Source of the DNA: Candidatus Gemmiger faecavium
GTDB lineage: Bacteria > Bacillota > Clostridia > Oscillospirales > Ruminococcaceae
DNA length: 64,000 nt
Direction: 5' to 3'
Assembly: GCA_019114415.1 (NCBI GenBank)
Contig: DXFO01000009.1
Coordinates: 62,001-126,000, forward strand
Of the stretch, positions 30,109-34,839 are shown one piece after another (within the stretch, counting starts at the first letter, position 1; the number at the start of each line of letters is the position of its first letter). Made by a program: the position numbers and the translations under genes. The notes beneath the pieces are model-generated. The model searched no databases. It was not told where the DNA came from and saw nothing but the letters and a program-made list of their open reading frames with translations.

Positions 30109-30442
30109 ACCCCTCCGCTCTGTCCGGCGCGTGACCGGATTCTTTATAGAATATACCACACTGGCCCGCCCGTTGCAAGGCGGAGAGCCGGTTTTGTTGG
30201 GGACGGAAGAGTAAATGTAAAATTCCTGTGCGCCCGGCGGGGCAAATTTTGCACGGTCTTTACACTTTGCGGCTGTGGATTACCGCGATTTTACATCGAT
30301 TGTACCGGCGCATGGTCGATAACGGGGCTTTGCCGCGATACAATAGAACCGTTCCGAGCGAAAGGAACAGGGGCGGCCGGGTGGCCGCCGAGTCTACACA
30401 AAACAGCCGTACAACGGCGAAAAAAGGGAGAAGAAATTACTT

Positions 30443-31384
30443 ATGAAACGTATCGTTGCGACTATCTGCGCTGCGGCTATGGCTCTGAGCCTGGCTGCCT
30501 GCAGCACCACCGACAGCAGCTCTTCCGCTTCCACCGCTGACGAGAGCAGCTCCGCTTCCACCTCCAGCTCTGCCGCTACCGAGGAATCCACCGGCAGCGA
30601 CTTCGACAACAGCCAGAAGATCTCGGTCGTTACCCGTGAGGATGGCTCCGGCACCCGCGGCGCGTTCATCGAGCTGACCGGCGTTGAGACCGACGAGGGC
30701 GACATGACCACCGTCGATGCCCAGCAGGCCAACTCCACCAACAACGTTATGACCTCCGTTGCCGCCGAGGAAGGCGCCATCGGCTACATCTCCCTGGGTT
30801 CTCTGAACGAGACCGTCAAGGGCATCGCGGTGGACGGCGTTGAGCCCACCGTCGAGAACGTCAAGAACGGCAGCTACACCATCGCCCGTCCCTTCAACAT
30901 CGTCACCAACGGCGATGTCACCGGCCTGGACGAGGTTTCTCAGGACTTCATCAGCTACGTGATGTCCGCTGAGGGCCAGACCATCATCACCGAGGAAGGC
31001 TACATCGGCGACGACGCCGCTGAGAGCTACACCAGCACCCAGCCTTCCGGCAGCATCGTGGTCGGCGGTTCCTCCTCTGTCTCTCCTGTCATGGAAAAGC
31101 TGATCGAGGCTTACGCCGAAGTCAACCCCAACGCCACCATCGAGCTGCAGACCTCTGACTCCACCAACGGCGTCAACTTTGCTCTGGACGGCACCTACAC
31201 CATCGGTATGGCCAGCCGTGAGCTGAAGGACAGCGAGGTCGAGGCCGGCGCTGTGGCTACCGTGCTCGCCATGGACGGCATTGCGGTCGTCGTCAACAAC
31301 GCCAACCCCATCACGAACATCACCATGGACAATCTGCGCGCTGTCTACACCGGCGAGCTGACCACCTGGGCTGACGTTCAGTAA
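30443..31384 (+). CDS. pstS: Phosphate ABC transporter substrate-binding lipoprotein, apparently circularly permuted
   Basis: Lipobox LAACS; VVTREDGSGTRGAF precedes GGSSSVSPVMEKL...IGMASRELKDSE...MDGIAVVVN...VYTGELTTWADVQ; next to pstCAB-phoU. Confidence 0.92.
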   Translation: MKRIVATICAAAMALSLAACSTTDSSSSASTADESSSASTSSSAATEESTGSDFDNSQKISVVTREDGSGTRGAFIELTGVETDEGDMTTVDAQQANSTNNVMTSVAAEEGAIGYISLGSLNETVKGIAVDGVEPTVENVKNGSYTIARPFNIVTNGDVTGLDEVSQDFISYVMSAEGQTIITEEGYIGDDAAESYTSTQPSGSIVVGGSSSVSPVMEKLIEAYAEVNPNATIELQTSDSTNGVNFALDGTYTIGMASRELKDSEVEAGAVATVLAMDGIAVVVNNANPITNITMDNLRAVYTGELTTWADVQ

Positions 31385-31537: not shown

Positions 31538-32443
31538 ATGGAAAACAATGCTGCGACCGCCGTGGTAATGGCCGGCGGAACGTCAAAATGGAAAGAGTCC
31601 GCCATGCGGATCCTGTTTCTGGCATGTGCGTGTGTGTCCATCTGCGCTGTTGCGCTGATCTGTATTTTCCTGTTCGCAAACGGTCTGCCCACCATCTTCA
31701 AGATCGGGCCCCTCAACTTCCTGCTGGGAACAGAGTGGAAACCCTCCGCGGATGTGTACGGCATCTTCCCCATGATCATCGGCAGCATCTACGTCACGGC
31801 CGGGTCCCTGGTCGTCGGCGTGCCCATCGGAATTCTGACGGCGGTATATCTCTCCCGCTTTGCCGGCCAGAAAACCAAAAAACTGCTGATGCCCGCCATC
31901 CAGCTGCTGGCCGGTATTCCCTCCGTCGTTTACGGTTTCTTCGGCGTCATGGTGCTGGTGCCCTGGGTGGCAGAGCTTGCGGAGCCCTTTGACGGCAGCG
32001 GCATGAGCATGTTCACCGCCAGCCTGCTGCTGGGTATTATGATCCTGCCCACCATCATCACCGTTTCCAAAACTTCCCTTGACGCGGTGCCCCAGAGTTA
32101 CTACGAAGGCAGTCTGGCCCTGGGCGCTACCCACGAGCGCAGTGTTTTCTGCATCCTGCTGCCCGCCGCCAAGTCCGGCGTGCTGTCCGGCGTCATCCTG
32201 GGCGTGGGCCGTTCCATCGGCGAGACCATGGCTGTCATCATGGTCGCGGGCAACCAGCCCCGTATGCCCCAGGGCCTGTTTGAGGGCCTGCGCACCATGA
32301 CCAGCAACATCGTCATGGAAATGGGCTATGCCGCCGACCTGCACCGCGAGGCGCTGATCGCCACCGGCGTTGTGCTGTTCGTCTTTATTCTGCTGATCAA
32401 CTTCTGCTTCAGCATGGTCAAGGGAGGAAAAGAACATGCCTGA
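31538..32443 (+). CDS. pstC: Phosphate ABC transporter permease
   Basis: Position in pst operon; GILTAVYLSRFA, AGIPSVVYGFFG. Confidence 0.94.
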   Translation: MENNAATAVVMAGGTSKWKESAMRILFLACACVSICAVALICIFLFANGLPTIFKIGPLNFLLGTEWKPSADVYGIFPMIIGSIYVTAGSLVVGVPIGILTAVYLSRFAGQKTKKLLMPAIQLLAGIPSVVYGFFGVMVLVPWVAELAEPFDGSGMSMFTASLLLGIMILPTIITVSKTSLDAVPQSYYEGSLALGATHERSVFCILLPAAKSGVLSGVILGVGRSIGETMAVIMVAGNQPRMPQGLFEGLRTMTSNIVMEMGYAADLHREALIATGVVLFVFILLINFCFSMVKGGKEHA

Positions 32444-33390
32444 ACTGAGTATCAATGCAAACGGACGGGTGACCGCCGGCTCCGATATGACCGCCAGCCA
32501 TCCCACCGCCCTCAACCGCGGACACCGGGGCAAGGACCCCTACCGCAACCGCACCGGCGCCCGGGTCTTTTCCGTGGCCATGCGCTGGCTGGTCCGTCTG
32601 GCCGCGCTGTTCACCGCCGGTATCCTGATCTTCCTGGTGGGCTACATTCTGGTCCGGGGCATCCCCAACCTCAAGCCCTCCCTGTTTGAGTGGACCTACA
32701 ACTCCGACAACGTTTCCCTTATGCCGTCCCTCATCAACACCCTGCTGATGACGGTGCTGGCACTGCTGGTTGCCACCCCGCTGGGCGTCTTTGCGGCCAT
32801 CTATCTGGTGGAGTACGCCCCCCGCGGCAGCAAGCTGGTCAAGGTGGTCCGTCTGACCGCCGAGACGCTGCAGGGCATCCCCTCCATCGTGTACGGCCTG
32901 TTCGGCATGCTGTTCTTTGTCACCCAGCTGCACTTCGGCCTGTCCCTTCTGTCCGGCTCGCTGACGCTGGCCATCATGATCCTGCCCCTCATCATGCGCA
33001 CCACCGAGGAATCCCTCATGTCGGTGCCGGATTCCTACCGTGAGGGCAGCTTCGGCCTGGGCGCGGGCAAGCTGCGCACCGTCTTTGCCATCGTGCTGCC
33101 CCCGGCCATGCCCGGCATCCTGTCCGGTGTCATCCTGGGCACCGGCCGTATCGTGGGCGAGACCGCCGCGCTGCTGTACACCGCCGGCTCCGCCACCAAG
33201 ATCGCGTCGGGCGCGGATTTCCTGTTTGACTCCACCCGTACGCTGGCCGTGCATATGTACGTCCTTTCCAGCGAGGGTCTGCATGTGGGCGAGGCATTTG
33301 GCACCGCAGTGGTCCTGCTGGTGCTGGTGCTGGCCATCAATGCCGTCTCCAGCCTGATTGCCAGAACATTGACGAAAGGAACTCAGAACG

Positions 33391-33398
<8 letters not shown>
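32436..33398 (+). CDS. pstA: Phosphate ABC transporter permease
   Basis: [37 protein letters not shown]; 8-nt overlap with pstC. Confidence 0.94.
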
Positions 33399-34143
<745 letters not shown>

Positions 34144-34164: not shown

Positions 34165-34839
34165 ATGGGATACAGCAGCCGCAAAGTCTACGACGCAGAG
34201 CTGCTTGAGCTGGATACCATGCTGGCACGCATGGGCCATGCGGCAGGCGGAGCCATCGGCAGCGCCCTGCGGGCACTGCGGGAGGGCGACGTGGAGCTGG
34301 CGCGCAGCGTCGTTGCCCGGGACAACGAGATCAACGCCGTGGAGCGGGAGATCGAACACCGCTGCCTGACGCTTTTCCTGCGCCAGCAGCCGGTGGCCAG
34401 CGACCTGCGCAAGGTGTCCACCGCCCTCAAGATGGTCACCGACATTGAGCGCATCGCCGATCAGGCTTCCGACATTGCCGAGATCGTGCTCCACCTCAAG
34501 ATCGACCGCGCCCATGCCGTGGGCGTCCTGGAGGACATCTACGAGATGGGCGACCTGGTCCACCGTATGGTCAAGGATGCCATCGGCGCTTACGTCCAGG
34601 TGGACCTGGACGCTGCCGCCAAGGTCATCCGCAAGGACGACAAGGCCGACGCTTTCTTCAGCCGCATCAGCGACGAGATCGCCGCCTACATTGCCGCCAA
34701 CCCTCAGGATGCCACCACCGCCCTGGACCTGTTCATGATCACCAAGTATCTTGAGCGCCTGGGCGACCACGCGGTCAACGTGGCCGAGTGGGTGGAGTTC
34801 CTCAAGACCGGCGTGCACAAGTCGCAGCAGATCGTCTGA
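34165..34839 (+). CDS. phoU: Phosphate transport system regulator PhoU
   Basis: LRQQPVASDLRKVSTALKMVTDIERIADQASDIAE. Confidence 0.95.
   Translation: MGYSSRKVYDAELLELDTMLARMGHAAGGAIGSALRALREGDVELARSVVARDNEINAVEREIEHRCLTLFLRQQPVASDLRKVSTALKMVTDIERIADQASDIAEIVLHLKIDRAHAVGVLEDIYEMGDLVHRMVKDAIGAYVQVDLDAAAKVIRKDDKADAFFSRISDEIAAYIAANPQDATTALDLFMITKYLERLGDHAVNVAEWVEFLKTGVHKSQQIV

Follow-up and report, generated by a model that had tools for sequence, protein, structure and literature searches.

A naturally circularly permuted PstS in a Gemmiger pst operon, an ancient and widespread variant

Introduction

Natural circular permutation has rarely been described for the binding proteins of ABC importers. 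We found one case, MglB-2 (Tp0684) of Treponema pallidum, a naturally permuted binding lipoprotein with glucose as its ligand, designated 'Type Ic' (PMC4990184). Proteins of the MglB-2 type occur in treponemes and also in Gram-positives, and membrane tethering was proposed as the reason for their permutation (PMC4990184).

Among solved structures of the phosphate-binding protein PstS, the closest to the protein analysed here is 4H1X, which was released in 2012 and represents SP_2084 of Streptococcus pneumoniae TIGR4. SP_2084–8 constitute the pneumococcal Pst1 transporter with PhoU (PMC6722419). At low Pi, expression of pst1 rises more than 100-fold via PnpRS, and deletion of pst1-phoU1, an experiment on the whole operon rather than on its receptor, decreased the initial rate of Pi uptake about twofold in low Pi (PMC4913102). 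The numbering of 4H1X is in conflict: its title gives SP_2084, which is the PstS of Pst1 in the papers, and its molecule name is 'PstS 2', while pstS2 is SP_1400 (PMC11075461). Our literature search for permuted PstS or 4H1X covered open-licence papers, a scope that leaves absence unproven, and returned no description as a permutation. As far as searched, the variant is therefore already known as a structure and apparently undescribed as a permutation.

Here, we report on the PstS gene of a 64,000-nucleotide stretch of Gemmiger DNA (the window). Its product is a PstS in naturally circularly permuted form, with the two halves swapped without loss.

Results

Order of the halves

The features of the locus are collected in Table 1. 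Homology to PstS (TIGR02136, PF12849) extended over both domain halves. Pfam PBP_like_2 matched the protein in two separate stretches, and TIGR02136 matched the genome at 92608–93006 (model positions 160–293) and then at 93016–93396 (model positions 28–163). The score of 185.5 bits remained below the cut-off of 206.6, because the match splits into two stretches in reverse order, and the protein does not pass as a canonical-order member of this model. A profile of 65 canonical PstS proteins gave the same picture: columns 115–242 matched residues 57–188 (E = 3.6e-38), and columns 1–111 matched residues 202–312 (E = 5e-35). Columns 112–114, which correspond to the hinge, were the sole columns absent from the window protein. 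The halves rejoined in silico in canonical order yielded a single full-length match of 253 bits to this profile, which was matched by none of 200 shuffled sequences. Since all the other columns are present and the rejoined halves match over the full length, the permutation is lossless.

Table 1. Features of the permuted pstS locus and its operon (window coordinates).
Feature	Position	Strand	Details or basis
Pho-box-like element, TTTACA-like repeats	30248..30306	+	conserved in eight Gemmiger upstream regions
PstS ORF	30443-31384	+	313 aa, Gemmiger sp.
Lipoprotein signal peptide, lipobox LAAC, acylated Cys20	30443..30502	+	sequence; Cys20 conservation
Ser/Thr-rich tether, residues 21–56	30503..30610	+	sequence; low confidence in AF2 model
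Canonical C-terminal half, residues 57–188	30611..31006	+	profile matches
New linker, residues 189–201, old C-terminus to old N-terminus	31007..31045	+	gap between the two profile matches
Canonical N-terminal half, residues 202–313	31046..31381	+	profile matches
Stop codon of permuted PstS, in hinge	31382-31384	+	sequence
pstC permease	31538..32443	+	TIGR02138, 297 bits, cut-off 196
pstA permease	32436..33398	+	TIGR00974, 265 bits, cut-off 193
pstB ATPase	33391..34143	+	TIGR00972, 429 bits, cut-off 343
phoU regulator	34165..34839	+	TIGR02135, 215 bits, cut-off 130

The phosphate loop TREDGSGTR (R65, S69, G70, T71) is located in the C-terminal half, and the motifs GGSSSVSP, TSDSTNG, and GMASREL are in the N-terminal half. 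Cys20 was at least 90% conserved in an alignment of 64 permuted proteins. Both halves are homologous to those of canonical PstS proteins (e.g., 4gd5, 4q8r, Clostridium perfringens; phmmer, E = 1e-46), with which the window protein has the ligand motifs, the lipobox, and the operon in common. It differs from them in the reversed halves, the new linker, and the chain end at the hinge. The parts are thus retained, their order is swapped, one linker is new, and the fold is that of 4H1X (see below), which characterizes a circular permutation. The preliminary description, made from the sequence alone, had proposed this domain order, and its ORF coordinates, LAAC signal with Cys20, Ser-rich linker, and motif order all stand. 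It let the N-terminal half begin at about residue 203, which the profile places at 202, and it correctly had the chain stop exactly before the TREDGSGTR segment, as the stop falls within the hinge.

Fold and ligand site

The best PDB match was 4H1X, collinear over residues 57–311 (E = 5.5e-56, about 42% identity). The strongly matching canonical PstS proteins in the PDB were aligned as two swapped pieces. AF2 with the 64-sequence alignment predicted a bilobed fold with a pLDDT of 89.8; the prediction from the single sequence was useless (pLDDT 37). Foldseek, which keeps sequence order, aligned the model with 4H1X at 1.6 Å over 261 columns, with a TM score of 0.94 relative to the target and 0.78 relative to the query, the latter counting the disordered signal and tether. 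Against canonical PstS (4gd5, 4q8r, 1twy), about half of the model was aligned, and no listed match exceeded a TM value of 0.51. SP_2084 thus has the same permuted order and the same predicted fold, and the collinear full-length match together with the common clade (see below) assigns the window protein to the 4H1X-type permuted clade. In S. pneumoniae, a canonical PstS (4exl) is present as well, whereas the permuted PstS was the only one found when the window genome was searched with the PstS model (E ≤ 1), a result that holds within the limits of a 2.55 Mb draft in 75 contigs with 92% completeness. The same search gave one extra short match, which fell at the end of the model that covers the signal peptide.

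The ligand residues of E. coli PstS (T10, S38, D56, R135, S139, G140, and T141) were aligned by hand, yielding S211, S240, S258, R65, S69, G70, and T71 as the putative ligand positions of the window protein. Across the 64 permuted proteins, S240 and S258 were invariant, and R65, S69, G70, and T71 were at least 90% conserved. In this hand alignment, Ser258 occupies the position of Asp56. The GMASR motif is shared by the canonical clostridial protein 4gd5, whose structure contains bound phosphate; therefore, Ser in place of Asp56 is a trait of the subfamily and not an effect of the permutation.

The resemblance to MglB-2 is in kind only; the matches are to PstS, which has the class II fold. MglB-2 differs in PBP class, ligand, and cut, and it has a fourth hinge crossing, whereas two would be expected in the window protein. 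The latter accordingly falls outside 'Type Ic', which comprises sugar-binding proteins of the class I fold whose hinge is crossed one additional time.

Operon context

The adjacent genes are pstC, pstA, pstB, and phoU, all above their NCBIfam cut-offs, so the flanking genes are as normal as they had seemed from the sequence. Upstream of pstS, TTTACA-like repeats start at 30248, 30259, 30279, 30290, and 30301, with spacings of 11, 20, 11, and 11 nt. Repeat pairs with 11/22-nt spacing numbered 1 per upstream region versus 0.01–0.04 in shuffles. The repeats look like a Pho box and may bind a regulator.

Distribution of the permuted form

Separate profiles of the halves classified the loci (n = 199) by half order as 125 C–N, which include a few duplicates of the window locus, 65 N–C, 2 N–C–N–C, and 2 fragments. 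About 120 loci have the same half order and cut site as the window protein; Gemmiger gallinarum carries it at 96% identity. All permuted relatives have 0–6 residues beyond the N-half profile at the C-terminus and a linker of 12–22 residues.

In the family of the window genome (120 genomes, 119 genera), 33 genomes gave a permuted match running through the C-to-N junction, and 46 had a canonical PstS above the model cut-off. Both forms above the cut-off occurred together in 0 of the 120 (hypergeometric P = 3e-9, ignoring kinship). Two of the permuted genomes (G006 and G112) also contained a weak canonical-order match below the cut-off. A sample of 399 genomes of the phylum, with the matches read by hand, contained 13 permuted genomes besides that of the window, from 10 families; the remaining matches were three canonical C-halves and two tandem proteins. 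Among the carriers with names are Gemmiger, Agathobaculum, Faecalicatena, Dorea, Coprococcus, Roseburia, Butyricicoccus, and Intestinimonas. Beyond Bacillota, the permuted gene was found in the spirochaete Treponema saccharophilum (L200), on the 382-kb plasmid pTS2 (NZ_AP025290.1), with pstCAB-phoU adjoining.

Some loci carry further variants. Genome G149 has a second, diverged permuted PstS (L139 and L129), with L139 being 42% identical to the window protein, and another second, diverged copy (L102:347-1024) is 34% identical to it. PstS-like domains were also seen in open frames of 804–985 aa in two family genomes (G097:C13:44365-51369 and G112:C13:31205-31960). Five faecal records of 5–8 kb filed as 'Bacteriophage sp.' (MT837530, MT837962, MT838145, MT838544, and MT837061) encode permuted PstS and are probably bacterial DNA filed as phage.

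We considered the permutation as a tethering adaptation, as proposed for MglB-2, and found this unsupported, since a simple lipobox pattern marks nearly all of the sampled canonical PstS proteins (61 of 65) as lipoproteins as well. Within the family, tether length did not differ between the two forms (medians 26.5 and 27; p = 0.90). Overall, the lengths did differ (29 versus 21), but this was not seen within the family and may reflect sampling.

Phylogeny

For the trees, the halves of permuted PstS were reordered to match the canonical proteins, and 4H1X was included. Permuted PstS formed one clade with an SH-aLRT of 94 in the tree of 131 rows and with bootstrap/SH-aLRT values of 99/97 in the tree of 50 rows and 98/85 in the joint tree of 61 rows. 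The C-half alone also gave a permuted clade (98/83). In the N-half tree, the canonical row L152 was placed among the permuted rows, and a single clade was not rejected (p-AU = 0.48). The PstC partners of permuted PstS likewise formed one clade, with a modest SH-aLRT of 91. Because they group like PstS, the operons seem to have been inherited and replaced as units. In the window's genus, genome G054 encodes a canonical PstS that branches far away (L140, G054:C2:291561-292436) and no permuted one. Its PstC groups elsewhere too, which looks like a replacement of the whole operon within the genus.

Two proteins of one genus, L133 (G473) and L134 (G431), are tandem PstS with the order N–C–N–C in single frames of 531 and 544 aa. 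They contain the C–N order internally, between the copies, but they consist of two full copies and occupy a separate branch of the tree. A role as direct ancestors was not supported, as they are not sister to the permuted clade; their existence does show a duplication intermediate of the presumed kind to be viable.

Discussion

With these results in hand, we consider it very probable that the window protein is the ordinary Pi-binding PstS of a normal pstSCAB-phoU importer, circularly permuted by one ancient, lossless event. The chain starts at the old mid-protein hinge, runs through the C-half, a new linker of about 13 residues, and the N-half, and stops at the hinge. Pi would be captured by the usual closure of the two lobes and then passed to PstCA. 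The strand order of the AF2 model and the known class II topology suggest a cut within lobe 2 and a junction of the old termini in lobe 1. With this placement, two hinge crossings would be retained, lobe 1 would become the continuous lobe that is inserted into the other, and lobe 2 would carry the lipid anchor. As for the origin, one in-frame tandem duplication of PstS may have produced N–C–N–C, the outer N-half and C-half would then have been lost to leave the C–N order, and the entire operon would then have spread by descent and transfer. The trees point to one apparent origin of the permuted clade and to the permutation as its fixed form.

The source genome is a draft in 75 contigs with 92% completeness, which might suggest that the order is an artefact of assembly or of a local rearrangement, or that the gene is a recently scrambled pseudogene. 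The chance of this is negligible. Independent assemblies and cultured isolates, such as G. gallinarum DSM 109015, G. formicilis ATCC 27749, and Faecalicatena orotica, carry permuted PstS, and the crystal structure 4H1X has the same order, which together rule out an assembly artefact. The single conserved cut site and the motifs kept across 64 proteins speak against both an artefact and a pseudogene. The placement of L152 among the permuted rows of the N-half tree would be compatible with halves fused independently from two genes or with several separate permutations, but the C-half and joint trees recover one clade, the N-half data are compatible with it, the cut site is identical everywhere, and the two halves are placed near broadly the same canonical PstS proteins. 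Such a composite history is thus unlikely.

A change of role toward phosphate sensing or another oxyanion, instead of high-affinity Pi import, seems very unlikely to us. It could be argued from the invariant Ser258 at the position that the hand alignment equates with E. coli Asp56 and from the unreached TIGR02136 cut-off; however, the phosphate-bound canonical 4gd5 has the same motif, and the missed cut-off follows from the split match. The pstCAB-phoU neighbours and the lack of another PstS among the genome matches also favour import, as does the pneumococcal Pst1, a Pi importer (PMC4913102). Since SP_2084 belongs to Pst1, which is required for full uptake at low Pi, the permuted form very likely works.

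The view of the preliminary description that the protein is probably functional is thus supported by the conserved motifs, the operon context, and analogy with the pneumococcal relative, and its guess that permuted forms exist in other gut Clostridia proved right. Of the checks it named, structure prediction and a profile search across Firmicutes yielded a bilobed fold matching permuted 4H1X and the carriers in 10 families; neither of the findings it regarded as refuting, a full canonical-order binding protein or an assembly artefact, holds. Our analysis adds that a solved structure exists and that the protein is not a lone oddity but represents a form that an entire clade has fixed.

A clade fixed for the permutation, with a crystal structure, a studied pneumococcal relative, canonical sisters in the genus and family, and tandem proteins, makes the duplication route testable. 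The effect of the permutation on anchoring and docking is likewise open to direct test. Permuted PstS is an ancient, widespread variant overlooked by annotation pipelines: because the curated model splits its match and misses the cut-off, the pst operons of many gut bacteria would lack a named pstS. In T. saccharophilum, and likewise in Monoglobus, the permuted gene bears the NCBI name 'substrate-binding domain-containing protein'.
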